Positions 693-13,662 of a stretch of DNA of 33,188 nt are shown piece by piece. Position 1 is the stretch's first letter. Each line of letters starts with the position of its first letter. The notes under the pieces were generated by a model, which ran no database searches, was not told where the DNA came from, and saw nothing but the letters and a program-made list of their open reading frames with translations. This DNA is from Ignavibacteria bacterium (lineage in GTDB: Bacteria > Bacteroidota > Ignavibacteria > Kapaibacteriales > UBA2268): the NCBI GenBank assembly GCA_026417135.1, contig JAOADV010000020.1, positions 1 to 33,188 of the forward strand, in the 5' to 3' direction. The position numbers were made by a program, and so were the translations under genes.

Positions 693-1763
693 TTACCACC
701 AGATTTTAAATGGTTTGTATTCAGCTTCTTTTTTGATATGACGGACGAGATTGTAGCATTCCAATCGGACGAGTCGGCGATAGGAAATATTTCTTTTGAT
801 TTTTCTGTGGAGAATAGTTTTGTTGAGTTTTGTATCGAATTCTTCGACGAAGATTTTTCGGCCTAAGTTGTTTAGATAGCAAGCGTTGTCTTTGTATTCG
901 AAATGTTCGAGTTTTATTCTTTTTGTGTTGAGAAGTTTAAAGATAATTCTGTCGGCAAGGATTGGTTTGAAGATTTCGGCGATATCGTAGGCAAGCGAGA
1001 AGCGTTTTTCGCCGGGTTCGTGTAGGAAAGAAATAAATGGGTTTAGATGGGTTTTGAAGATTTCCGAGATTACGAGTGAATATACGAGAGCATTTGCGAA
1101 AGAGATTAGAGCATTCATAGGGTCGGGGGGCGGGTGGAATTGGCGTTTAGTAAATTTTATTTCTGAATCGAGAATAAGATTGAAAGTTGAATAGTAGATT
1201 TTTCGGATTTGACCTTCGAGAAACATAAGCTGAGGGACAAGGTAGAAGGAATCGGCAGAAGAAAGTAGGGAGCGAATTTCGGCGACTTGATTTTGAAGAG
1301 GTAAGCCACGCGAAATATAGCGGGCAAGGTTTTGAAGGATATTGTGGGCGGCGCCTTCGACAAACTTTTTGGCAAGGACAAGTCGGCGTTGGTATTTCAA
1401 GTAGAAAGAGCATTGTTTAAGGATAAACGTACCGCTATAGACTTCGCTGAAAGGGTAGAATGTTCCCTTGTAGTAGCCGTAGTAATTAAAGATATGGACT
1501 GGGATGTAGTTTGTTGCGGCAAATTCGATAAAGCGGGAATTGAAATTGACATTGGAAAGGATGAAGATAGAATCGATATCGTTGATTGGGATAATTTTTC
1601 GTGCGCCAATGTTGATATTGGAGGACTTTTCGGAAGATAAAAGAATCGAATCTTGAAGATTTTCGTCTTCGGCTGGTTCAGTCGTATCGTAGGGTTCGAA
1701 AACGATTGTATTGTTCGAACGGCGAAGGATTCCGGGTTTGAAGAAGTAGTAGTTCCTTTTCAT
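693..1763 (-). CDS. cas1: CRISPR integrase Cas1
   Basis: The 356-residue product is a full-length Cas1, the metal-dependent integrase that inserts protospacers at the leader-repeat junction with Cas2. The N-terminal beta domain begins with the typical YYFFKPGILRR segment, and the helical catalytic domain carries Glu183 (in FLEGQIRK), His248 (in SFLHEPG) and the acidic pair Asp260/Glu263 (in AYDIAEIFKP), which correspond to the metal-binding E-H-D/E set. A GAGG ribosome site lies about 8 bases before the ATG. The gene is minus-strand, divergent from the lipoprotein and csm genes, and followed by cas2. No reverse transcriptase or other domain is fused to it. Confidence 0.96.
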   Translation of the reverse strand: MKRNYYFFKPGILRRSNNTIVFEPYDTTEPAEDENLQDSILLSSEKSSNINIGARKIIPINDIDSIFILSNVNFNSRFIEFAATNYIPVHIFNYYGYYKGTFYPFSEVYSGTFILKQCSFYLKYQRRLVLAKKFVEGAAHNILQNLARYISRGLPLQNQVAEIRSLLSSADSFYLVPQLMFLEGQIRKIYYSTFNLILDSEIKFTKRQFHPPPDPMNALISFANALVYSLVISEIFKTHLNPFISFLHEPGEKRFSLAYDIAEIFKPILADRIIFKLLNTKRIKLEHFEYKDNACYLNNLGRKIFVEEFDTKLNKTILHRKIKRNISYRRLVRLECYNLVRHIKKEAEYKPFKIWW

Positions 1764-2521: not shown

Positions 2522-2564
2522 ATTTTGTTTTTTTGAAAGAGTTTCTTATTTTAGCAAATTGAAA

Positions 2565-3611
2565 ATGGACGAAGGGACACCCGGTTGCAATATTCTGTTG
2601 GCAGTAGGCGGATTGAACCCCCAAGTAATAACCGAAGGATTGTTTTGTTTAGTTGTAAAGAAGAAAATCTTAATAGATGAGATTTTTGTGCTGACAACAA
2701 GAGAATGCAAAGACGAAATTGGAGCAAATCTTAAAAGGGAAATTTTAAGAATGGCAAAGATGTATCGATTCGAACCACCAAGGTTCAGCAACGAAAACAT
2801 TTTGTATGCCGAAACCGAGGCATTGGGCTCCGACGAGACGTTCCAAGAATTATCGTTCAAAACTATTCAGAAGTTGACAAAAGCAAAGGAAAACACGATA
2901 CATTGTTTGATAAGTGGCGGGCGAAAGACTATGAGTGTCGATGTAGCTTTTGCGATGGGTTTATTTGCACGGGACAACGACAGGATGTATCACATTTTAG
3001 CCAGCAAGGAATTTGAAGCGAGTGGAAAATATTTCCCCGAAACTAAGGAAGAAGCGGAAAGTCTATTGCTGAAAGAAAAACAATTTATCCGTTTGCGACA
3101 TTATTTGTCGGATACAGTTTTAAACAGAGAAATAAGTTATCGAGATTTAGTCGGCTATGTTCAAAGAGAAATCGAACAGCGAATAGAATTAAAGCCATTA
3201 ACAATAAATATCGAAAAACGAAGTATAAGAATAGGGGACAAGGTTATAACTTTCCCGCCGTTCGTTTTTGCTGTTTATTTATTTTTTGCAAAGGAGGGAC
3301 GATTTATTCGGGGAGGGAAGAACTTTTCGCGAAGCAATTCAGAAAAGTTATGGAAAATATATCGTCGAGTCTCGACATCGCGTGGGCAACTTGAAAGAGT
3401 GCGAAAGTATGCATTCCACAATGGATATGTGGATTTCGATGTGGTGCAAAAAGCTATATCGAATATAAGGAATGCTATAAAAACAGCATTAAGTAGTAGC
3501 CCGCTTGCCGAATATTATACGATAAGTGTCGAAGGGAGCTATGCCGATAAGAAGTATGGAATCCGTCTGGGACGGGACAAGATAAGAATTGAAAAAAAAA
3601 TTGAGGAGTAG
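2565..3611 (+). CDS. NE0113-family CARF protein (type III CRISPR ancillary)
   Basis: The product (about 348 residues) matches the Cas_NE0113 family, which databases label ring nuclease or Csm6-like. The N-terminal CARF/Rossmann part has the family motif G-G-L-N-P-Q-V-I-T-E-G (residues 15-25), VLTTREC on a later strand, and SGGRKTMS (117-124), which is expected to contact cyclic oligoadenylate. The C-terminal part (about 209-345) resembles a winged-helix domain and ends with the family-typical YGIRL segment. The Cys-rich insert I remember from other members is replaced by a short Gly/Arg/Ser stretch. No convincing HEPN site is present. The ATG at 2565 is preferred to a TTG at 2559, although neither has a good ribosome site. 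The csm1 ribosome site overlaps its 3' end, which places it in the csm operon. Sensor, regulator or ring nuclease are all possible roles. Confidence 0.88.
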   Translation: MDEGTPGCNILLAVGGLNPQVITEGLFCLVVKKKILIDEIFVLTTRECKDEIGANLKREILRMAKMYRFEPPRFSNENILYAETEALGSDETFQELSFKTIQKLTKAKENTIHCLISGGRKTMSVDVAFAMGLFARDNDRMYHILASKEFEASGKYFPETKEEAESLLLKEKQFIRLRHYLSDTVLNREISYRDLVGYVQREIEQRIELKPLTINIEKRSIRIGDKVITFPPFVFAVYLFFAKEGRFIRGGKNFSRSNSEKLWKIYRRVSTSRGQLERVRKYAFHNGYVDFDVVQKAISNIRNAIKTALSSSPLAEYYTISVEGSYADKKYGIRLGRDKIRIEKKIEE

Positions 3612-3614
3612 AAA

Positions 3615-6056
3615 TTGACCGAAAGAGAAGCAAAATATTTAGGTGCATTTCTGCACGATATTGGAAAATTTACGTATAGGGCGTATGGTGGCACAATGGG
3701 GCACGAAGACTTGGGCGTAGGCTTTTTCGACGAACACATTAGTCCAAAACAAGTCTTCGGCAACGATAGACATCTGAGAGAAATTGCGAAAAAATCGATA
3801 AAAAGAGCATTTTACGAAATTGAAAAAGCCGATTACTTTGCTGCAAGCGAACGAGAAAAAGAAAAAAAAAGCACCCAAAAAACAAGAAGGCCTTTGGTTT
3901 CAATTTTATCCAAAGTAGAAATTGGGAAAGCTTCGATTTCACAAAAGTTACAAGGCTCAAAAAAAACATACTTTTACCTACCCGACCCAATAACCTTAGA
4001 AACAATCTGTGATGTGCGCGACAGAGAAATAGAGGTAAGCAAATGGGAGCTTACCGGTATAGAAGACCTTCAATTTCAACATCGTCATCAAGTAAGTTAC
4101 GACAAATTTGTTAATGAACTCAAGATTTTAAGAGGCATTAGTAAATTTCGACCTTTCTTTGCAACATTATACAAAATAGTCGAAAAATATACTTCAAGGG
4201 TTAGTTCGGCTAGTTATGCCAGTTCGCCCGATATATCGCTATTCGACCATTCACGAGTTGTTGCAGCTCTTTCCGTTTGCCACGAAGAAGGGGAGAAAGA
4301 TTTGGAATGTTTACTAATAAAGGGGGACATATCTGGGATACAAAATTTTATATACTATCAAATCGAAGAGGCTGAACGAGCAGCGAAAGAGTTGCGAGGT
4401 CGTTCGTTCTACGTCAAACTATTAGGCGATACACTTGCCAACTATTTAACGCTTACCTTAGAAATTTACGATGCAAATATTCTTTTTTGTAATGGAGGGA
4501 ATTTTGAAATAATTGCCCCAAATAATGAAAAAAATAGGACGAAGCTTAAGGAAGCCGAACAACATATAAATCAATATCTTTTGCAAAGGTTCGGGGGCCA
4601 ACTACAAGTAGTAATGGCTTCGATTCAGGTGGGGTCGGAAAAATTGATGGAAAACTATTTTGATTGCCGAAATCAACTCGAATTCGAATTACAAAAGCAA
4701 AAAAGGAAAAAGTCTTTTTCCGTGCTCGAAGATTTGATGTTGGAGCCAAAAGAGTTACTTTATTCCACTTGGCACGAAAAAATGTTCGAAGGGATAGGGA
4801 AAAATATCGTTCACAAGGAGTTTTTAATCGAGGTACGATTTCCGCCACAGCGACGCAGTGGCTATCTCGATAATCTTGATGTTGAAATTATCGATTTCAG
4901 CGAACTTGGAATAGCCTACTTTTTCGCCGAAAATTCTGAGTTGAAAGAAAATTTGAACCTTCTTGAACAACACCAAATTGACTACGTAATTGTACACAAT
5001 CTAAAAGACACAGACTTAGAAATGTGCTACAACAAAGTCAAAGATACAAAAGTTTCAACAGATGTTGCTTACTCATATAAATTTATTGGTTCGTTCATAC
5101 CAACCGATAAATATCGACCTTTGACTTTCGAAGAATTAGCCGAAATTGATAGTAAAAACTACCCTTTATTAGGTGCGTCAAGATTAGATGTTGATGATTT
5201 AGGAAAAATTATAGCTTTTGGTTTAACAGAAGCCAAAGTCAGCGATGAGGAGAGTTTGTTGTATAGTATTTCTCGTGTTGCAACCCTTTCTCGGGAAATT
5301 GACCTATTCTTCTGTGGTTATATTAATAAAATTGCAAAGGAAAACGATATTTATTTGGTATTTGCTGGCGGGGACGACCTTTTTGCTGTGGGTTCTTGGA
5401 CAAAAATCATAGACTTTGCAATAAAAGTTAAACGAGAGTTTAGGAAATTTTCTTGTTCGAACGACAACATTACGTTATCTTGTGGAACTGTTTTCTTTAA
5501 GCCAAGTTATCCCACTTCGCGATTTGCGAAAGCTGCAAAGGAACAAGAAGAAAGAGCTAAAGGAAAAGACAAGCACAAGGATAAAATATCAATTTTTTAT
5601 CGAGAAGTAACTTGGAGAAATTTGGGCTATTTACTTAGGATTGGTAAGATATTATACGAATTAGTTCAAGGGGACAACGGCAGAGGACACCTTCCGAGAA
5701 GTTTTATACATAAGCTATTGGATCTTACCAAGCTATGCTTCGACGAAGAGGGTAAATTAGTCATAGATAAGTTAAATACAATATTGCCAAAGTTACACTA
5801 TGCCTTTGCTCGACGCGGAATAACTGCAAATGAATTAAATAACGAAAATAATAAAGTAATTGATAGAAATTTGAGTAATATTTTAAAAATTTCCGATTCG
5901 AATATCGAAAAATACAAAAACAAAATTACCAATTTCGAAAGGTTCATAGCAAGGTATTTTATCGAGTCCACAAGCGAAGAAAGAAAAAATTGGTTCGAAA
6001 ATTTCCAAATTCCAGCATCTTATGTTTTGTTGAAAACAAGAAAAGGTAAAAAATAA
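3615..6056 (+). CDS. csm1: Type III-A CRISPR large subunit Csm1 (Cas10)
   Basis: The 813-residue protein is the signature subunit of the Csm complex. It has an N-terminal HD nuclease domain with His14-Asp15 (in FLHDIGKF), which in this family cuts single-stranded DNA. The first palm domain (from LLIKGDISG near 233) has a degenerate GGNF in place of a catalytic motif. The second palm domain contains LDVDDLGK (524-531) and the cyclase motif GGDD at 585-588, which makes cyclic oligoadenylates from ATP when target RNA is bound. The C-terminal helical domain follows. Both active sites look intact. The start is TTG at 3615: AGGAG (3604-3608) lies 6 bases before it and overlaps the end of the preceding gene, and the reading begins just before the HD motif. 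csm2 follows 16 bp later. Confidence 0.96.
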   Translation: MTEREAKYLGAFLHDIGKFTYRAYGGTMGHEDLGVGFFDEHISPKQVFGNDRHLREIAKKSIKRAFYEIEKADYFAASEREKEKKSTQKTRRPLVSILSKVEIGKASISQKLQGSKKTYFYLPDPITLETICDVRDREIEVSKWELTGIEDLQFQHRHQVSYDKFVNELKILRGISKFRPFFATLYKIVEKYTSRVSSASYASSPDISLFDHSRVVAALSVCHEEGEKDLECLLIKGDISGIQNFIYYQIEEAERAAKELRGRSFYVKLLGDTLANYLTLTLEIYDANILFCNGGNFEIIAPNNEKNRTKLKEAEQHINQYLLQRFGGQLQVVMASIQVGSEKLMENYFDCRNQLEFELQKQKRKKSFSVLEDLMLEPKELLYSTWHEKMFEGIGKNIVHKEFLIEVRFPPQRRSGYLDNLDVEIIDFSELGIAYFFAENSELKENLNLLEQHQIDYVIVHNLKDTDLEMCYNKVKDTKVSTDVAYSYKFIGSFIPTDKYRPLTFEELAEIDSKNYPLLGASRLDVDDLGKIIAFGLTEAKVSDEESLLYSISRVATLSREIDLFFCGYINKIAKENDIYLVFAGGDDLFAVGSWTKIIDFAIKVKREFRKFSCSNDNITLSCGTVFFKPSYPTSRFAKAAKEQEERAKGKDKHKDKISIFYREVTWRNLGYLLRIGKILYELVQGDNGRGHLPRSFIHKLLDLTKLCFDEEGKLVIDKLNTILPKLHYAFARRGITANELNNENNKVIDRNLSNILKISDSNIEKYKNKITNFERFIARYFIESTSEERKNWFENFQIPASYVLLKTRKGKK

Positions 6057-6072: not shown

Positions 6073-6450
6073 ATGGAACAAATACCAGATTTAGCAACTT
6101 TGAATGGGGAATTACTTGATAATATTGCTAAGAGGGAAGGAGAAAATTACCGAAAAATTAAGACCAACCAAATCAGAAATGTCTTTAGCCACATCAATCA
6201 TTTAAAATCGAAATTACTCAAGGAACCGAACAAGTTGGATGAGCTTAAAGATGAATTAATTTTGCTTAAGCCGAAGTTAGCTTATGCGAAAGGAAGACAT
6301 CCAATTGTACAGCCATTTCAAGAATTTATGTTCAAGGTGATTGACTCTACTGTTAATTCAAGTGACTTTCAGAAAGCCTTAAAAAATTTCTTTGTGCTTG
6401 TCGAAGCAATAGTTGCTTATCATAAATTCTTTGGCGGTAGGGAAAATTAA
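6073..6450 (+). CDS. csm2: Type III-A CRISPR small subunit Csm2
   Basis: The 125-residue, mostly helical, Lys-rich protein fits Csm2, which forms the inner filament of the Csm complex and contacts the crRNA-target duplex. The segment KTNQIRNVFSHINHLK (about 30-45) is the usual helix with the conserved T-x-Q-I-R pattern. A second conserved helix (KPKLAYAKGR, then FQEFMFKVID) and the C-terminal helix around VLVEAIVAYHKFFGG complete the pattern. The length is typical. A strong GGAGGG ribosome site at 6064-6069 precedes the ATG. The gene sits between csm1 and csm3, the usual order. Confidence 0.93.
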   Translation: MEQIPDLATLNGELLDNIAKREGENYRKIKTNQIRNVFSHINHLKSKLLKEPNKLDELKDELILLKPKLAYAKGRHPIVQPFQEFMFKVIDSTVNSSDFQKALKNFFVLVEAIVAYHKFFGGREN

Positions 6451-6469
6451 TCAAAATTAGGAGATAAAT

Positions 6470-7273
6470 ATGGCACAAGCAGAATTCATAGGAAATATTA
6501 TTTTAAAAGGTAAAATTGAATGTATCACTGGTTTACATATCGGTGGTTCAAAGGAAAAACTCGAAATTGGGGCCGTCGATTCCCCCGTCATTCGCGACCC
6601 CGTAACTAATTACCCGTATATTCCCGGTTCTTCTTTAAAAGGTAAGCTTCGTAGCCTTTTATCTTATTCTCTTGGGTTTAAATACGATTCCGCTGGTAAG
6701 GACGATTACAAAGAACACGAAACGATATATTTCATCTTTGGTGCCGGTGCTAACGATAAAAACAGACCCGATGGACCAACACGGCTTATTGTTCGGGATG
6801 CATATCCCGACGAAAAAACAATAAGAATGTGGGAAGAACTTGATTCGGAATTGTTGTACACAGAATACAAAGCCGAAAATACATTGGACAAACTTACCAG
6901 TGCAGCGAATCCTCGTTTTCTTGAAAGAGTGGTCAAAGGTTCGCATTTCAATTTCGAAATAATATATGGAATTTACCAAATCGGCGAAAATAAAGATAAC
7001 CCAGAGGATTTTAAATTCGTTGTCGATGCGATGAGACTTTTAGAAAATTCTTATCTTGGGGGTAGCGGAACTCGGGGCTATGGGCAAGTCGCTTTCAAGT
7101 TGATGGAACCAATAATTTTGTTCCGAAAAGATTACGAAGAAGGTAGCGAGAATTTCGTGCGAGCATCGAAATCTATTGATGTTCTTTTCCCCGATGGGTT
7201 TAAACATCTTAGGCTTTCGGATTTCGACGATAAATTTATTCAAGAAAACATTATGGGGAAATTTCAGGGATGA
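6470..7273 (+). CDS. csm3: Type III-A CRISPR backbone RNase Csm3
   Basis: The 267-residue RAMP (Cas7) protein forms the helical backbone on the crRNA and cuts target RNA at 6-nt steps. The catalytic Asp is visible at residue 37 in IGAVDSPV, equivalent to the well-studied Asp33 of other Csm3 proteins. The N-terminal segment CITGLHIGGS and the Gly-rich IPGSSLKGKLR (51-61) are family hallmarks, and a second Gly-rich loop GGSGTRGYG occurs near the C-terminus (about 197-205). The ribosome site AGGAG lies shortly before the ATG. Its stop overlaps the ATG of csm4 (ATGA), so the two are translationally coupled. Confidence 0.96.
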   Translation: MAQAEFIGNIILKGKIECITGLHIGGSKEKLEIGAVDSPVIRDPVTNYPYIPGSSLKGKLRSLLSYSLGFKYDSAGKDDYKEHETIYFIFGAGANDKNRPDGPTRLIVRDAYPDEKTIRMWEELDSELLYTEYKAENTLDKLTSAANPRFLERVVKGSHFNFEIIYGIYQIGENKDNPEDFKFVVDAMRLLENSYLGGSGTRGYGQVAFKLMEPIILFRKDYEEGSENFVRASKSIDVLFPDGFKHLRLSDFDDKFIQENIMGKFQG

Positions 7274-8259
7274 AAGCTGTATATCTTTACCCAAAATCGT
7301 CCTATGTTACTGAATTGCGGTCCGATACCCTCTGGGGTTTGATTTTGGTAGCTATTCGTTATGTTTTCTCCGAAAATAAACTTTTGGAACTGCTCGAAAA
7401 GTATTTGAAAAACAAGCCTCCTTTCGTTGTTTCATCTGCTTTTCCATTTAAGATGGAAACCGATGGAACAAAAATTCACTTCTTCCCCAAACCAATTTGG
7501 GGTAAAGGTTTTAAGGTTAAAACAACAGATTTTAATGCTCTCGAAATACGAAAGAAATTAAAAAAAGTTAAATCTTTGCCACAAAATATTTTCGAAGAAT
7601 TTATAAACGGTGAAATTACGGATGAATCATTTATTGCTAAGTATTCTGGGAATAATGTTGACAATTTAGAAAGTTTAGAAAATATTATTCCTAAAATTTT
7701 GGATTATTCGACTGTGCATAATAGAATCGACCTCCTAAAAGGAACAACTATGGAAACCGAAGAAGGTGGTCAGCTTTTCTTAACTCATGAATTTTTTGTC
7801 CAGAAGGGAGGATTGTTTTTCCTTATCGAAGGTGAAGATATTTCTTATCTCGAAGCTGCTCTTAGATTTTTGAGTCATTTTGGCTTTGGTGGCGACCATT
7901 CGACTGGCAAAGGAGCTTTCGATTTTGAAATAAAGGATTTTTCGATTCGAGTGCCACAAGACCCGTATTGCTTCGTTACACTTTCGCTTTTCAATCCAAC
8001 CCCGGAAGAGCTTAATTATTTCAAAAGCGATGCAGATAAGTTCTGGTATGAGCTTGTTCAACGCAATGGTATAATCGGAGCGCAATTCAAAAGAGCAGAA
8101 TTTCGAAAAAAATCCTTTTTTGCTTTTGCCGAAGGTTCGACTTTTCCTATTATCGAGGGGAAAAAGTATTATGGCAGAATATTAAAGACAATGGACGAGC
8201 CAAGTGCCTATTCGAATTGTCTTGCTTTCGCAATTCAGGCAAAATTTACGGAGGTATAA
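7270..8259 (+). CDS. csm4: Type III-A CRISPR subunit Csm4 (Cas5-like)
   Basis: The 329-residue RAMP protein matches Csm4, which caps the 5' handle of the crRNA and docks Csm1. It starts with the usual strand AVYLYPKSSYVTELRSDTLWG and carries the RAMP Gly-rich loop at 205-215 (F-G-F-G-G-D-H-S-T-G-K-G). The segment VHNRIDLLKGTT is also typical of this family. The start overlaps the csm3 stop by 4 bp. The csm5 ribosome site GGAGGT overlaps its last codons, so the csm operon is tightly packed. Confidence 0.94.
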   Translation: MKAVYLYPKSSYVTELRSDTLWGLILVAIRYVFSENKLLELLEKYLKNKPPFVVSSAFPFKMETDGTKIHFFPKPIWGKGFKVKTTDFNALEIRKKLKKVKSLPQNIFEEFINGEITDESFIAKYSGNNVDNLESLENIIPKILDYSTVHNRIDLLKGTTMETEEGGQLFLTHEFFVQKGGLFFLIEGEDISYLEAALRFLSHFGFGGDHSTGKGAFDFEIKDFSIRVPQDPYCFVTLSLFNPTPEELNYFKSDADKFWYELVQRNGIIGAQFKRAEFRKKSFFAFAEGSTFPIIEGKKYYGRILKTMDEPSAYSNCLAFAIQAKFTEV

Positions 8260-8260
8260 T

Positions 8261-9607
8261 ATGCCGGTAAAGGTTAAATTGAAGACAATTACTCCGATAC
8301 ACATTGGAACTGGTTTTTCTGTTCTACCCGAAGACTATTTTCAAAAAGCTAATAAACTTTTCTTTATTAATAAAGATAATTGTTTAAGGTTCATTAAAGA
8401 AAAAGTTGGCTCGGAAAAATTTTATTTAAAATTTAATGAATGGATAGAGGAAATTTCATTCAAGCTTGAAGGAGAAGGTGGCAGAAAACCCCGAAAAGAA
8501 TTTAAACTTTCCATTTTGGATTTTGTCAAGAAACATTTAAATGAAGAACAACTTTATAATGAGTTATGTTCCCAAATTCCGATCGATAATAGTTTGTATC
8601 ATTATTATCTTTATTCTAATGCTGTACCAAAACGTGAGACTAACCCTCATATTAAAACTGCCGACAATTTACCATATATCCCTGGCAGTTCAGTGAAAGG
8701 ACTATTAAGAAACTGTTTAACCAACTTAGTGGTTAATGAGCAAAATACCGTTCAAAAAATCTTAATAAATTATTTAGATAAATTTGAAAATGAGTTTAAA
8801 AGTAGTTCAAACAAACAACAAGTTATTCAAAAATTTAAAACCGATAAAGATTCTGTTGTGAACCAAATTTTTCAGTGTAAGAAAAGAAATAATCACAATA
8901 AAGAAGTTTTCGATGTTAAGTACGACTTGTTTAAGTTCATTCAAATAAGCGATTTTTACCCCGAAGAAAAGGACTGCCTTGTTCTAATTGAACCCACCAA
9001 TTTTACTGCTCGCGGCAAAACCGCAATGACCCCATTTTTGGAAGCAATAAAGGAGAATACGATACTTGAAGGTCAACTAACTGTTAAAGTTGACGAGTTA
9101 AAGGAGATACAAAAAAACTTAAAATCTTTACAGTCTGCAGGCAAATGGATTGAACTCGAAGAAAAATTTCGATTTCTTTTTGATATAGATTTTAACCATA
9201 TTTCGAATATCGATAATGACCAGTTTGAAAGGAAATTCATCGAAAGATTAACTCTTGCGGTGGAAGATTTTTCAAATGCAATCATAAACAAAGATATTCT
9301 TTGGATAAATAGAATTTCTAAATTTGACAACAAAGGAAAATTGATACATTTCTACGACAATTTGCCAACAAATGCTGTTAAAATTGGTTACTCGAGTGGT
9401 TTCCATTCTGTTACCATTTTTGACGCACTTACTTCCGAAAATTCAAATTCAAACAATGATTTAAAGAGCAAGTATGAACAATTCCTCCAAAAATTAAAAA
9501 TTTTAAAGACCAGAATTGACGAGTTTCCCAAACATAGAAAATTAGTAAAACTACCCAACAACGTAGAAGCAACATTTGGTTGGATTTCGATTGAATTTAT
9601 CTTATAG
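8261..9607 (+). CDS. csm5: Type III-A CRISPR subunit Csm5 (Cas7-like cap)
   Basis: The 448-residue protein fits Csm5, the RAMP subunit that caps the 3' end of the crRNA filament and is involved in crRNA maturation. It starts VKLKTITPIHIGTG, as in other Csm5 proteins, and has the Gly-rich motif IPGSSVKGLLR near 140-150. A second conserved segment FTARGKTAMTPF lies around 250. The ATG at 8261 was chosen over an upstream in-frame codon because GGAGGT (8250-8255) lies 5 bases before it and the csm4 stop ends 1 base earlier. The next gene begins directly after its stop codon. Confidence 0.94.
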   Translation: MPVKVKLKTITPIHIGTGFSVLPEDYFQKANKLFFINKDNCLRFIKEKVGSEKFYLKFNEWIEEISFKLEGEGGRKPRKEFKLSILDFVKKHLNEEQLYNELCSQIPIDNSLYHYYLYSNAVPKRETNPHIKTADNLPYIPGSSVKGLLRNCLTNLVVNEQNTVQKILINYLDKFENEFKSSSNKQQVIQKFKTDKDSVVNQIFQCKKRNNHNKEVFDVKYDLFKFIQISDFYPEEKDCLVLIEPTNFTARGKTAMTPFLEAIKENTILEGQLTVKVDELKEIQKNLKSLQSAGKWIELEEKFRFLFDIDFNHISNIDNDQFERKFIERLTLAVEDFSNAIINKDILWINRISKFDNKGKLIHFYDNLPTNAVKIGYSSGFHSVTIFDALTSENSNSNNDLKSKYEQFLQKLKILKTRIDEFPKHRKLVKLPNNVEATFGWISIEFIL

Positions 9608-10510
9608 ATGAATTCTCATATGAAAAATCTTAAATTAAGCTTAATCGATACACCCGAAAATTTTCAAATTTTAGAGATAATTTTGGAAAACGATGGCATT
9701 ATTTCCCCAGAAGAAATATCCAGCATTACAATTCCAGAAGAGATAAATTGGGCAAAAGGTATTGTTATTTTTGGTCGAGCCCCAATTTGGCTCTATTCTT
9801 ATCTTGTACACCGTTGTCACCCTTCTGCTTGGGTAGCAGTTTACGACCCGCGTTACGGTGGAATCGTTGTCGAAGCACATAAAACCGATTCTCCAAACGT
9901 TGGGGAAGTTTTAGAACAAGAGCGAATCTTGAAATATCGCAACTCTTTTTTGCAATCGAAAAAAATTATCGCTTTTCTTGGTAACCCGCACACTGGAAAG
10001 TCCGTTTTCCTTAGGGCTGTCCGAAGAAAATTAAGAGAAATATTACCAATAGATAAGTTTAATCGAGAATTATTTCTTATCAAAGCTTGCCCAGATGGAG
10101 AAGGCGATTGGTTCGAGGACTTAGGCGAAAAAGAAGGCAGAATTTATCGTTATAAAAATCAATTTACTTTGGATTTCGTGGATAAAGTTTGTAGGGATAT
10201 TGATAGTATCTCTAATGAAAAATCCTTGATTTTTGTAGACTGTGGTGGTAAAATCGATAAGTTCAATCAAATGATATTGAATAAATGCACTCATTCCATA
10301 ATTTTGGGAAGAGATGATGAATCGATGTCGGAATGGCGTGGTGCGGCTAAACTGTGTGAGTTAAATATCTTGTGCGAAGTAGAATCCTCGCTTGAATATG
10401 TATCGAAAATTCTTACCGTAAACCCTTTGAAAATAAAGTTTGGACCTTTGGATAGAAGTCAAAAACAATTTCCAGACCTTCCCAAGGAATTGATAGATAA
10501 ATTAGTTTGA
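9608..10510 (+). CDS. csx3: Csx3 ring nuclease domain fused to a P-loop ATPase
   Basis: The 300-residue protein has two parts. Residues about 48-95 form a Csx3 (Crn3) domain: GRAPIWLYSYLVHRCHPSAW, then VYDPR and VVEAH, with candidate active residues His68, His71, Asp80, Arg82 and His91. Csx3 proteins degrade cyclic tetra-adenylate and so switch off type III signalling. Residues 118-300 are a P-loop NTPase with a Walker A motif G-N-P-H-T-G-K-S (125-132), a conserved CPDGEGDWF (161-169) and a Walker B-like LIFVDCGGK (207-215). I recall Csx3-AAA fusions from other type III loci, so the fusion itself is probably not new. What the ATPase does is unknown to me. The ATG directly follows the csm5 stop. 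A second ATG four codons later is an alternative start. Neither has a ribosome site, which suggests coupling to csm5. Confidence 0.9.
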   Translation: MNSHMKNLKLSLIDTPENFQILEIILENDGIISPEEISSITIPEEINWAKGIVIFGRAPIWLYSYLVHRCHPSAWVAVYDPRYGGIVVEAHKTDSPNVGEVLEQERILKYRNSFLQSKKIIAFLGNPHTGKSVFLRAVRRKLREILPIDKFNRELFLIKACPDGEGDWFEDLGEKEGRIYRYKNQFTLDFVDKVCRDIDSISNEKSLIFVDCGGKIDKFNQMILNKCTHSIILGRDDESMSEWRGAAKLCELNILCEVESSLEYVSKILTVNPLKIKFGPLDRSQKQFPDLPKELIDKLV

Positions 10511-10517
10511 ACAATAA

Positions 10518-11711
10518 ATGAGATTTGGTTTATCATTTTTAGGAAAAGGCAACTATGAGGTAGCTACATATAGCTTTGCTAACCAAAAGGAGACAACTTC
10601 GCTTTTTCCATTTGCTTTTTGCAAATTTTTTCAAATTGAAAGATTGTATTTAGTAATGACGGACGAATCGAAACAAAAGAATTTCAATAATCTTAAAATT
10701 TTGTTCGAAAATGATGGAAATTCTTGCGAAATTTATGAGGTTTTAATACCTTTTGGCAGAAACGAGCTCGAATTGTGGAATATTTTTAATTCTATCGCAA
10801 ATGTTTTGCCAGAAAATTCTGAAATTTACTTCGATATAACACATTCTTTCCGTTCGTTACCTTTTATTGCTATCGCAATTTGCAATTACTTGTCTATTGT
10901 GAAAAATATTAATATTTCCAAGGTTGTTTACGGGGCATACGATGCAAGGGATGGCGATATAGCCCCTGTTTTCGATTTAACTCCGTTTCTCGAGTTGATT
11001 AGATGGTCGAATGCAGTAAATCAATTTATTAAATTTGGTAATTCGAAGGAACTTAGAAATTTAGTTGGCGAAATTAACAATCAAAGTTACAAGGCACAGG
11101 TTTCTTATAAACCTAAGGCATTAGGTTCCTTTGCTAATCATTTGAACGAAGTAACAACGGCATTGGCTGTTGCAAGAATAGAAGAATCTTTGAAACACGC
11201 AAATAAAATGCTCGAAAAACTCGATGATGTCGTAATTGATATTGAAAAAATAAGTAAGATACAACCTTTAAAATTATTGCTGGAGAAAATTAAAGAGAGA
11301 TTCCTCGGTTTTTGTGTGAAAGATGACAATATCTTTTCGAACGAGGGTTTTTCGGCTCAATTGAAAATGATTGAATATTATCTCGAAACTGAACAATATA
11401 TGCAAGCGATTTGTCTTGCGAGGGAAATAATTGTTTCGAAAATCGCAGCCGACAGAAATCTTTGCCCGAAAAAGAGAAGTGATAGGGAAAATGTTGAAAA
11501 AGAATTGAACGAGCTTGTCAAGGAATTGAGCGAAAAGTCCAACACAAAAAACGATTTAGCCAAACTATGGAGCGAAATTACAAGTACCCGTAACGATATT
11601 GCTCATTTAGGAATGAATGAAAACCCTTTGCGTGCTTCGAGAGCTATTGTTAATGTTAGAAATATATGTTTAAGACTAAGGAAATTTATTGAATCTGAAA
11701 TAATTAAGTAG
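10518..11711 (+). CDS. csx1: Csx1-type CARF-HEPN RNase (type III effector)
   Basis: The 397-residue protein has an N-terminal CARF domain with FDITHSFRSLP (105-115), the D-x-T-H-[GS]-F-R motif of the Csx1/Csx2 (TM1812-like) group that binds cyclic oligoadenylate. The helical C-terminal half ends in a HEPN domain with the RNase motif R-N-D-I-A-H (Arg358 to His363, RX4H). In this group, activator binding to CARF turns on unspecific RNA cutting. The active-site residues are present. It starts 7 bp after csx3 and is the last plus-strand gene of the operon. Its stop overlaps the stop of cas6, which faces it. No terminator lies between the two. Confidence 0.9.
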   Translation: MRFGLSFLGKGNYEVATYSFANQKETTSLFPFAFCKFFQIERLYLVMTDESKQKNFNNLKILFENDGNSCEIYEVLIPFGRNELELWNIFNSIANVLPENSEIYFDITHSFRSLPFIAIAICNYLSIVKNINISKVVYGAYDARDGDIAPVFDLTPFLELIRWSNAVNQFIKFGNSKELRNLVGEINNQSYKAQVSYKPKALGSFANHLNEVTTALAVARIEESLKHANKMLEKLDDVVIDIEKISKIQPLKLLLEKIKERFLGFCVKDDNIFSNEGFSAQLKMIEYYLETEQYMQAICLAREIIVSKIAADRNLCPKKRSDRENVEKELNELVKELSEKSNTKNDLAKLWSEITSTRNDIAHLGMNENPLRASRAIVNVRNICLRLRKFIESEIIK

Positions 11712-12501
11712 CAACATCGAGCATCCCGAAGCCCATTGAATTTTTTTGTCCGATGCCGCATTCATATGCAACTCTTTGAATCGAAGGATTTCCAAAAATT
11801 TTGACTGGGCACAAAAATCCTTTTACTTTTGTTTCCTCTTTTTTTCCTTCCGCAAGCGTAATCAATTTACTTACGTTTTCGGCGCCTCCTTTCGTTTCTA
11901 TGTATTTTTTGTCCAAGATGATTTCAAGCTTATCGACATATTCTTTTTTAAAAACAATTTCGTATTTCTTTTTTAAATTGTTAGCTAAATTTTCTTCGAC
12001 TCCAATTTCGTCCACCCGATAATAATGTTCAACAAGTTCGTTATTTCTTTCCACAACAGTTGACGAAACTGTTGGCGACAACATTAGATAGTTCATTTCG
12101 TTGCTGAATTCGGGTTCTGGGATAAGACCGGCAGACTTCAAGATAAATTCGGCACCAACATAGTTATTTGCAATAACGATTTTCCGTTTTATCATAGCAC
12201 CTATTAGGAAATTTTCGATTATTGAGTATTCGAATGGCGAAGAAAAAAGGAACCAGCATCCGTCTGTGCTATGAATTTTGTCGCCTTCAATTTGAAATTT
12301 TTTAAAAAACAAGCGGGAGAAAGTGAATAACTTCAATTTTTTCCCATCTGGTGTTATAAAGCCTTTGTCGTGTAACCACTTAGAAAAACTTGGAGAACTT
12401 TCGTAAAAAATTTGATATAGTGCTGAACCCAGAGGGTAGTTGTAATTTACTGGGATTGTGAAATGCCGTTTAACTGATTTTAGTCTTATTTCTAATCTCA
12501 T
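11704..12501 (-). CDS. cas6: CRISPR repeat endoribonuclease Cas6
   Basis: The 265-residue protein matches Cas6, which cuts the precursor crRNA within each repeat to leave an 8-nt handle for the Csm complex. It opens with a RAMP strand (RLEIRLKSVKR) and ends with the Gly-rich loop CGIGQKNSMGFG (248-259), the diagnostic Cas6 C-terminal motif. His44 in SKWLHDKGF is a candidate general acid, as in other Cas6 proteins. The gene is on the minus strand, convergent with csx1 and overlapping it by 8 bp, so it is transcribed separately from the csm operon and may be read from its own promoter in 12502-12690. No ribosome site is visible before its ATG. Confidence 0.93.
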   Translation of the reverse strand: MRLEIRLKSVKRHFTIPVNYNYPLGSALYQIFYESSPSFSKWLHDKGFITPDGKKLKLFTFSRLFFKKFQIEGDKIHSTDGCWFLFSSPFEYSIIENFLIGAMIKRKIVIANNYVGAEFILKSAGLIPEPEFSNEMNYLMLSPTVSSTVVERNNELVEHYYRVDEIGVEENLANNLKKKYEIVFKKEYVDKLEIILDKKYIETKGGAENVSKLITLAEGKKEETKVKGFLCPVKIFGNPSIQRVAYECGIGQKNSMGFGMLDVAT

Positions 12502-12690: not shown

Positions 12691-13662
12691 TTATTTTCTG
12701 GGGAAATTGGTTTCGAGCATATCGGCATAATCTTCGAGAAATTCTTTGATATTTGAATAAAATGCAACTGGTCGTATTGTAAAGTGAAGCAAAAGATTAC
12801 TTAACTTTTCTGGTATGTAAGGATAAAGTTTCTTTAAGTTCATAATTCGGTAATTGTAGAAAGCTGATGAATCTTCGTAGCTAAGTGATTTTTTTATCGA
12901 TTCGGTAAATTCATTCCCTTTTTGAACTTGGTCGAAAGTCTTTATACCTTTTGCAACAGCATAAGAAACAATATTCCCACAAGTCCACAAATCGAAATCG
13001 GAGACATCTTGCATTAAGTCGAAATCTATCCAGCGAAAATTCCCAGTCTCTGCTTCGACAATTATATGGTCCGTTCGGATATCGCCGTGGCACAAATTGT
13101 TTTCGTGAAGATATTCAATTGCTTTAAAAGATTCAAAAAGTTTCCAAAGTATTGCGGGTAAATCTTCTTGAAAATACTCGAAATGTGGCTTTTCGTTCAA
13201 TGGTATATACTGGAAGAAAGATTTTCCTTTAATAAAATCTATTATTCTAACTGCGTTTCCTTTTTCGTCGTAGCAGATTTTGCCTTGCATAAATCTTTTG
13301 TCTTCGCGCACCAAATTCAAGACTTTTCCTTCCTTTTCGGGATTTCGGTAGCAACGAATTTTTAAAATTCCTATGTGTACGTAGAATGATTCGTGGAAAA
13401 CGGTTTTAATTATTTTTTCGGACTTGTTGTTCAAATCGATAACATTAAAGACCCAATATTTTGGTTGGTCTTCTATACCAAATCTTTGCTCTTTCATATT
13501 TCCACGAACCACATAGTCGCCGCATTCCAATCGGATGATATCGCCCGGTCTGATTTTCATCCAATCGGTTGTATCGGTTACGATGTTAATTCTGTTTGGA
13601 TTGAGCTTCCAACCCAGAATTTGTCTTACTCTTTCAACAAGGTACTCCTTTTCCGTTACCAT
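12691..13662 (-). CDS. Protein-kinase-like fold protein (HGD-type), function unknown
   Basis: The 323-residue product has a kinase-type catalytic segment: YLHENNLCHGDIRTDHIIV with His192-Gly193-Asp194, then WIDFD with Asp213 in place of the DFG Asp. This is the pattern of HGD kinases and aminoglycoside/choline-kinase relatives. The usual Asn after the catalytic Asp is replaced by His199. No Gly-rich loop is clear in the N-terminal part, although a small beta region (about 38-105) with VHIGILKIRCYR could be an N-lobe. Substrate is unknown and it may be atypical or inactive. It overlaps the end of the upstream MmcQ-like gene by 29 bp, so they are cotranscribed. The neighbour cas6 does not by itself imply a CRISPR role. 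Confidence 0.8.
   Translation of the reverse strand: MVTEKEYLVERVRQILGWKLNPNRINIVTDTTDWMKIRPGDIIRLECGDYVVRGNMKEQRFGIEDQPKYWVFNVIDLNNKSEKIIKTVFHESFYVHIGILKIRCYRNPEKEGKVLNLVREDKRFMQGKICYDEKGNAVRIIDFIKGKSFFQYIPLNEKPHFEYFQEDLPAILWKLFESFKAIEYLHENNLCHGDIRTDHIIVEAETGNFRWIDFDLMQDVSDFDLWTCGNIVSYAVAKGIKTFDQVQKGNEFTESIKKSLSYEDSSAFYNYRIMNLKKLYPYIPEKLSNLLLHFTIRPVAFYSNIKEFLEDYADMLETNFPRK

Follow-up and report, generated by a model that had tools for sequence, protein, structure and literature searches.

A Csx3 ring-nuclease domain joined to a predicted SIMIBI-class NTPase in a type III-A CRISPR operon, a possible NTP-gated off-switch

A gene in the window, the whole 33,188-nucleotide stretch of Ignavibacteria bacterium DNA analyzed here, encodes what is almost certainly a Csx3 domain joined to a P-loop NTPase domain, and structural models indicate that the NTPase half very probably belongs to the SIMIBI class (MinD, ParA, GPN, BioD). 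As the best explanation of this pairing, we tentatively propose a two-part off-switch of type III-A CRISPR, in which NTP-driven dimerization would gate a two-dimer cA4-cleaving site. The fusion of Csx3 with a P-loop domain is not new. It has been in print since 2020, PADLOC contains models for both domain orders, and in a 2025 survey the fusion of Csx3 with an AAA-ATPase is still given as 'of unknown function'. The interest lies in the function of this known fusion and in its copies outside CRISPR.

The fusion gene begins at the base after the end of csm5 (9607) and is followed 7 bases downstream by the next CARF gene (10518), and the reverse strand of 9608-10510 is interrupted by stops (Table 1). 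An initial annotation of this DNA had read the product as a Csx3 domain joined to a P-loop ATPase; the two domains, the second as a predicted NTPase, were borne out by the motifs and by matches to PF09620, TIGR02579 and the PADLOC Csx3-AAA profile (PDLC01045, E 8.7e-58, residues 15-296 against profile positions 20-277 of 286). The five motifs that it quoted are all present (HRCH at residues 68-71, VYDPR at 78-82, GNPHTGKS at 125-132, CPDGEGDWF at 161-169 and LIFVDCGGK at 207-215).

The Csx3 half matched Pfam Cas_csx3 (PF09620) over residues 27-102 (E 4.8e-27, 94.1 bits against a cut-off of 21), and the fusion protein matched NCBIfam TIGR02579 (E 5.9e-26, 90.6 bits against a cut-off of 55.4). 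The AF2 model of this half matched 6yud_H in the VIA search (Z 15.9, rmsd 1.7, 103 aligned). The domain fold and the five functional residues are common to the window protein and A. fulgidus Csx3/Crn3 (AF1864; PDB 6yud, 3wzi, 6vjg), a solo domain of ~110 aa, whereas the window protein adds an NTPase after Csx3. These residues are discussed as H57, H60, D69, R71 and H80 in the eLife 2020 paper on the A. fulgidus protein (PMC7371418), and alignment to that protein showed that all five are present in the window copy. The initial annotation had taken His68 and Asp80 as the active pair; Asp80 is indeed the counterpart of Asp69, but the catalytic His60 corresponds to His71, and not to His68, the counterpart of His57. 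By profile, modeled fold and residues, the domain is a member of the Csx3/Crn3 family and an intact predicted cA4 ring nuclease. According to the same paper, Csx3 cuts cA4 when the latter is sandwiched by two Csx3 dimers that assemble cooperatively, with the D69 face contributed by one and the H60 face by the other (PMC7371418), which makes the assembly of both dimers the control point. Cleavage of cA4 by Csx3/Crn3 enzymes depends on Mn. The fusion protein was the sole match at E ≤10 in its own genome (98% complete), in searches with the protein and with PF09620, so no solo Csx3 was found there to help the fusion copy.

Judged by its sequence, the fusion gene is within a type III-A operon having a predicted cyclase-type Cas10 and a likely CARF-HEPN RNase. 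The Cas10 contains both the palm GGDD and an HD motif, and as a predicted cyclase is thus expected to synthesize cOA. The HEPN_Apea profile matched the TM1812-type protein (10518..11711) below its cut-off (E 1.7e-4, 22.5 bits against 24.4). NCBIfam names the NE0113 family 'CRISPR-associated ring nuclease Csm6'; the operon may thus encode two ring nucleases, and the fusion gene may not be its sole off-switch. In Candidatus Kapaibacterium sp. Ch6, the nearest named relative, the genes between and including NE0113 and cas6 are arranged as in the window, and the NTPase is 62% identical over 184 residues. Rfam gave 0 matches in the window at the gathering score. A small protein-kinase-like gene adjoins cas6 (12691-13662, minus strand; Pkinase 32.1 bits, just above the cut-off of 31.7), and in Nostoc sp. 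UHCC 0302 an annotated protein kinase gene lies between csm5 and cas6.

Table 1. Features of the window, with coordinates, strand and the evidence for each.
Feature	Coordinates	Strand	Evidence and remarks
33-base direct repeat, 2 copies	9-109	n/a	Probable CRISPR array end, at the start of the contig
cas1	693..1763	-	PF01867 E 9.9e-80
NE0113-type CARF protein	2559..3611	+	TIGR02584 E 7.3e-27; PF09623 E 1.4e-21
cas10/csm1	3615..6056	+	TIGR02578 E 6.7e-136; HD motif FLHDIGKF, palm motif AGGDDLF
csm2, csm3, csm4, csm5	6073..9607	+	Profile search
Csx3-NTPase fusion gene	9608..10510	+	ATG start, 300 aa, uninterrupted ORF; PADLOC Csx3-AAA E 8.7e-58
Csx3/Crn3 domain, predicted ring nuclease	9629..9916	+	Residues ~8-103; Pfam PF09620 residues 27-102; fold match 6yud_H
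Codons of H68, H71, D80, R82, H91 (= A. fulgidus H57, H60, D69, R71, H80)	9809..9880	+	Alignment to A. fulgidus Csx3
P-loop NTPase domain, predicted SIMIBI class	9956..10507	+	Residues 117-300; AF2 model, MinD 1g3q match
Walker A GNPHTGKS	9980..10003	+	Residues 125-132; G125, G130, K131, S132 each 78/78 rows
CPDGEGDW, switch-I-like	10088..10111	+	Residues 161-168, after strand 2 (AF2 model); D163 in 78/78 rows
DCGG, Walker B / switch-II-like	10238..10249	+	Residues 211-214, after strand 3; D211 77/78, G213 and G214 78/78
TM1812-type CARF protein, likely Csx1-type CARF-HEPN RNase	10518..11711	+	TIGR02221 E 1.5e-30; C-terminal RNDIAH (RxxxxH)
cas6	11704..12501	-	TIGR01877 E 5.9e-28

To examine the class of the NTPase half, AF2 models, both of monomers, were compared for the window protein (78 rows, mean pLDDT 89.4, pTM 0.71) and for a Chlorobiaceae protein with the reverse domain order (44 rows, pLDDT 91.3). 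In the VIA search, window residues 117-300 matched MinD 1g3q first (Z 14.1, rmsd 3.5, 174 aligned), with ParA, BioD (Z 13.3), NifH and HypB within 2 Z of MinD. The Chlorobiaceae model matched MinD (Z 15.3, rmsd 3.3, 177 aligned) and cobyrinate diamide synthase (Z 13.7). We take the 50 VIA matches listed for the latter model to be SIMIBI members, and the leading fold-match families to be of the SIMIBI class. Foldseek with the window model returned 13 Csx3 rows and then, led by the GPN-loop protein Npa3 (E 1.8e-5), GPN-loop GTPases, Get3, BcsQ, Wzc, NifH, ParA, SRP54, FlhG and MinD. With the Chlorobiaceae model the result was mixed, the CARF protein Cat1 coming first (8.4e-5), followed by ParA, SRP, GPN, Get3 and MinD. 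Adenylate, APS and shikimate kinases were interspersed among these (best kinase E 6.6e-4, best SIMIBI rows 9.4e-5). No Csx3 chain was among the 50 Foldseek matches or the VIA matches listed for this model, whose Csx3-like half was identified by sequence profile only.

SIMIBI NTPases are characterized by a Walker A motif, an Asp after strand 2, and an Asp and Gly after strand 3. The window protein contains the Walker A motif, D163 after strand 2 and D211-x-G213-G214 after strand 3. Comparison with MinD, ParA/Soj, Npa3, dethiobiotin synthetase, HypB and NifH showed a like fold over residues 117-300 (Z 12.3-14.1 among the matches listed) and the P-loop, the Asp after strand 2 and the Asp-x-Gly-Gly after strand 3 in common, but sequence identity of only 8-15%; the window protein also differs in having a ring nuclease as partner and in lacking two motifs. 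One is the signature Lys of MinD and ParA, which occupies the second P-loop position and was found in 0 of the 78 aligned rows (Pro 76, Asn 2). The other is the GTPase motif, [N/T]KxD, absent from the window NTPase and matched somewhere in the NTPase half in 8 of 78 rows.

The published label 'AAA' for this half is doubtful and probably wrong. In AAA+ proteins the Walker B motif carries a catalytic Glu (hhhhDE). The residue after D211 was V in 41, I in 19, A in 7, L in 5, C in 4 and T in 2 of the 78 rows, and never Glu; the missing Glu and the SIMIBI fold matches among the rows listed led us to reject AAA+ as the likely class. No Pfam AAA profile exceeded its cut-off on the window protein (AAA_22, 13 bits against 27), and outside Csx3 the protein gave no Pfam match above cut-off, kinase profiles included. 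No AAA+ row was recognized among the 50 VIA matches listed for either model, a statement limited to the families listed. In the divergent L102 protein (613 aa), Pfam AAA_18 scored 31.1 bits, which is over its cut-off of 29.4. A PDB sequence search with the NTPase profile returned mixed P-loop classes among the best 60 of 98 matches, with GTPase Der best (E 1.6e-5 over 26 positions), and was given no weight.

Relatives were collected with an NTPase-only alignment of 9 rows (A1), which contains no Csx3 residues and was seeded with matches to the full-length window protein. The A1 scan yielded 115 relatives from 136 pattern matches, of which the best 80 were kept. Addition of five plasmid records and further loci, and removal of seven duplicates (L019, L022, L030, L032, L057, L058, L059) and the fragment L021, gave a set of 82 loci. 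The window protein alone gave 96 pattern matches in genome contigs and 4 in viral contigs, with 0 confirmed in either. A1 gave 13 matches in viral contigs, 0 confirmed, and thus no phage-borne relative at that sensitivity. Of 296 genomes sampled from the phylum to which the window belongs, 10 gave a match at E ≤0.01. The four weakest of these matches (L007-L010, E 0.003-0.008) were set aside; L008 and L009 are presumably PstB-like ABC ATPases, and L010 a PrkA-like protein.

Conservation was examined in 78 aligned NTPase rows (A2) from cyanobacteria, Bacteroidota, Patescibacteria and others, leaving out duplicates, the L074 protein at 8856-9641, and two sequences that are cut or split (L021, L082). 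G125, G130, K131, S132, G213 and G214 are invariant in 78/78 rows and D211 is present in 77/78; Walker A and DxGG lie outside the pattern with which most rows were collected. That pattern holds A160, D163 and their neighbors, so the presence of D163 in all 78 rows is partly by construction, and D163 is also present in 9/9 rows of A1, gathered without the pattern. Beyond the pattern letters, G166 (77/78) and W168 (76/78) are nearly fixed after the DGE motif. The initial annotation had named loss of the Walker Lys across relatives, or a C-terminal half that is only a structural extension, as arguments against itself. K131 is kept in every row of A2, the excluded L074 protein at 8856-9641 being a real exception, and the C-terminal half is not a mere extension.

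The NTPase is closely associated with Csx3. A Csx3 domain was fused, on either side, or encoded in a neighboring ORF in 79 of the 82 NTPase loci (77 plus L062 and L067, which were added later, L067 being a weak match with E 0.003). A1 contains no Csx3 residues, so the scan did not select for this pairing, although the nine seeds of A1 had been obtained via the whole window protein. In the three loci with no Csx3 (L034, L042, L082), the NTPase gene is no more than 0.5 kb from a contig end. Relatives of the NTPase alone, a search for which the initial annotation had suggested, do exist, and they stand beside solo Csx3 genes. All 19 separate pairs measured (including one duplicate locus and the second NTPase of L102) are on the same strand and ≤364 bases apart. 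On a tree of 83 NTPase domains, which leaves out the A2 exclusions and L099, the fused-N, fused-C and separate arrangements require at least 9 changes; none of 200 label shuffles did as well. This repeated switching among arrangements is strong evidence that both halves act together.

The previously described homologs show both orders. Csx3', or Csx3-AAA, of cyanobacteria (Slr7080, Synechocystis pSYSA, WP_011153748) has the same two domains in the same order as the window protein, with 29% identity between the NTPases over 136 residues. PADLOC PDLC01059 (AAA-Csx3, C3a67) has a homologous NTPase (window E 2.2e-36) in the reverse domain order. PDLC01515 (length 183) matched the window protein in the NTPase half only (E 1.8e-42), and its length and match range indicate a model without Csx3. 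Other layouts were also observed. A 444-aa protein of a Pseudanabaena galeata plasmid (L016, 5446-6780) contains two tandem Csx3-like domains followed by the NTPase. Three Ktedonobacterales proteins (L027, L039, L052) are NTPase-Csx3 proteins of ~400 aa with an extra ~125-135 residues between the domains, and their Csx3 domains have lost most catalytic residues.

Csx3 residues were scored in 94 domains including that of the window, with R or K allowed at position 71 and D or E at position 69. All 30 solo copies contain all five residues. At least one catalytic residue is lost in 23 of 64 fused domains, one of which (L036) is falsely scored, being cut by a contig start. Loss of the Csx3 active residues in relatives was a further argument that the initial annotation had named against itself, and such loss does occur, but not in the window copy or in L023, its nearest relative, both of which are intact; the Bacteroidota relatives L024 and L025 are degenerate. 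Degenerate fused copies make up 9/41 of those with Csx3 on the N side and no solo Csx3, 10/14 of those on the N side with a solo Csx3, and 4/9 of those on the C side. The intact or degenerate label changes at least 9 times on the tree (60 fused rows coded). In L012 and L024 all five Csx3 residues are lost and the NTPase motifs are kept.

Among the 14 fused copies beside a solo Csx3, an H60-face residue is lost in 10, and an Asp or Glu at the D69 position is kept in 13. The association of H60-face loss with a solo partner gave a Fisher p of 0.002 with kinship ignored; on the tree there are 2 (starred) to 5 independent pairs, and the association is not significant. Complementation of the lost face by the solo Csx3 is attractive, but not proved. 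In Slr7080 the H60 face has lost its two His and the H80 position, whereas the window protein keeps them. The spacing is H-x3-H-x8-DPK in the Slr7080 subfamily and H-x2-H-x8-DPR in the window. An apparent loss of His60 across the Slr7080-like subfamily was rejected as an alignment artifact, because this subfamily has one extra residue between its two His, and the second His reappears when positions are counted backward from the Asp. In Cyanosarcina radialis (L074), the protein at 8856-9641 keeps its Csx3 residues but contains neither P-loop nor DGEG motif, both having been lost, and that at 9572-10579 keeps the NTPase and has a degenerate Csx3 site. This reciprocal tandem loss, a single case read from sequence, has the look expected of two copies sharing one device.

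To investigate the occurrence of the pair outside CRISPR, genomes of the relatives were searched for Cas proteins. Thirteen NTPase relatives are in small genomes (0.7 to 1.5 Mb), of which 10 are titled as Patescibacteria lineages and 3 only as 'bacterium'. Csx3 profile matches were found in 11 of the 13, over the cut-off in 10; in the other two (L067, L082) the NTPase is near a contig end. The Cas10 palm (PF22335) and RAMP (PF03787) profiles each matched 0/13, a suggestive absence only, these being mostly metagenome drafts, and L023, L051, L056 and L099 matched both in those searches. Cas1 was found in 2/13, on other contigs. A source of another cyclic-nucleotide signal was sought in 16 genomes, again mostly metagenome drafts, and none was found: mCpol gave 0 matches over the cut-off (one weak match, E 0.05) and SMODS none at E ≤0.1. 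Given the 13 genomes with no Cas10 or RAMP match, cA4 removal may be only a part of the role. Between the NTPases of L079 (Harrisonbacteria) and the cyanobacterial CRISPR locus L035, identity is 60% (111/186 residues). In the limited literature covered, neither the SIMIBI assignment nor the Patescibacteria copies were found in print. In the Chlorobiaceae genome of L018 and L057, an AAA-Csx3 gene, a repeat array (by a crude repeat count) and a 774-aa Cas1-matching ORF (E 2.9e-88) were observed on one contig, with no Cas10 or RAMP match in the genome.

Several neighbors recur. In L079 (8357-15370), the pair is adjoined by genes for HD_4 (PF13328), a MoxR ATPase (PF20030) and a VWA protein (PF13519), with E values of 2.6e-7, 8.3e-20 and 1.2e-8, respectively. 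Such genes accompany the NTPase and Csx3-like genes in small genomes that gave no Cas10 or RAMP match, the Pfam identification being that of L079. BLAST found relatives of this MoxR in six of the loci that were clustered (L026, L041, L062, L084 and L102 besides L079). MoxR-vWA systems have been described as conflict systems, with Csx3 named among their domains (PMC7159879). HD_4 lies within 8 kb of the NTPase in 24/82 loci, 7 of which are seeds of the HD_4 profile. Cyanobacterial CRISPR loci also have it next to Csx3-NTPase (E 2.1e-26 in Synechocystis). We take HD_4 to be of the SpoT/MESH1 type; its substrate could be the linear product or alarmones. HD_4 was seen in 19 cyanobacterial loci (L014 5368-5949, L015 5455-6027 and 17 more), 18 of which also contain a TIGR03985 relative. 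A regulator-like gene, TrmB-like by eye and a candidate only, is often upstream of the small-genome NTPase and Csx3 genes. The L079 protein at 11218-11877 and the C-terminal part of the L102 protein at 9860-11701 contain a common domain (ETICV...PGDEIVYA...LLTAF.G..AP.EPWD), which in L102 comes after the NTPase and a Csx3-like domain. This domain had no Pfam or PADLOC match in L079, and may presumably be a candidate BECR-type RNase.

SIMIBI proteins such as MinD, ParA, NifH and GPN are typically dimers when bound to NTP, and change upon hydrolysis. With one such domain per chain and a Csx3 site that closes on cA4 between two dimers, closure could be made NTP-dependent. We hypothesize that the NTPase halves would hold or release neighboring Csx3 dimers, that cA4 removal would depend on the nucleotide state of the NTPase, and that cA4 binding would in turn alter NTP turnover. 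Against such gating we count the missing signature Lys, the tandem L074 copy (8856-9641) with no P-loop, and the fact that some SIMIBI proteins are plain enzymes, BioD and cobyrinate diamide synthase being among the fold matches. Deletion of slr7080 reportedly left defense against an invader plasmid unaffected (PMC9676260), and is counted in the same way. The NTPase half may instead be a BioD/CobB- or APS-kinase-like enzyme, working as a kinase, ligase or transferase to modify the linear cA4 product or another nucleotide, with Csx3 delivering the substrate. This is doubtful, but it would explain why G166 and W168 are nearly fixed, as in a substrate pocket, and it fits the BioD and cobyrinate a,c-diamide synthase matches, the kinases in the Foldseek result for the Chlorobiaceae model, the AAA_18 match of L102 and the recurring HD_4 neighbor; a kinase/transferase domain is also the name used for this half in the eLife 2020 paper (PMC7371418). 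No small-molecule site was recognizable, however, the best kinase row ranked under the best SIMIBI rows, and the window protein fell below every Pfam kinase or AAA cut-off.

Degeneration of the fused Csx3 domains, repeated on the tree and complete in L012 and L024, beside invariant K131, G213 and G214, would suit an arrangement in which Csx3 is a cA4 sensor and the NTPase an output switched on by cA4, through ATP depletion or a downstream complex, as a self-limiting effector. We consider this unlikely; the window protein, like L023, keeps every catalytic residue, and its operon already contains a likely CARF-HEPN RNase. The initial annotation had suggested that the ATPase might sense ATP depletion; as Cas10 spends ATP on cOA, it could in this way adjust signal removal. 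This is a special case of gating, and an NTP-gated ring nuclease could answer the ATP:ADP ratio, but ATP and GTP are indistinguishable as the nucleotide, [N/T]KxD being absent from the window protein, and we regard the suggestion as very unlikely. Still more improbable is a C-terminal half that is a scaffold only, devoid of NTP chemistry: no assay of the NTPase domain was found in the accessible parts of the literature searched, but across cyanobacteria, Bacteroidota, Patescibacteria and others, 77 or 78 of the 78 rows retain Walker A and DxGG. The NTP-gated off-switch is the explanation that we tentatively retain.

A wider form of the gated switch, which we put forward with considerable doubt, is that Csx3 and the SIMIBI NTPase form a general nucleotide-signal device. 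The NTPase would be its more constant half, its NTP cycle would open and close the two-dimer site, and paired Csx3 copies would each give one face. Such a device might run in Patescibacteria with no Cas10, with HD_4, MoxR and VWA partners, on another signal nucleotide.

What the 'AAA' half of Csx3-AAA does has been a question since 2020, and recasting that half as a SIMIBI switch ties it to the assembly of Csx3 dimers. If this is true, the nucleotide state would set the rate of cA4 cleavage, placing a ring nuclease under energy control, to our knowledge the first such case. If the gating device is true, a nucleotide signal beyond those so far described would also be suggested by the copies that lack Cas10.
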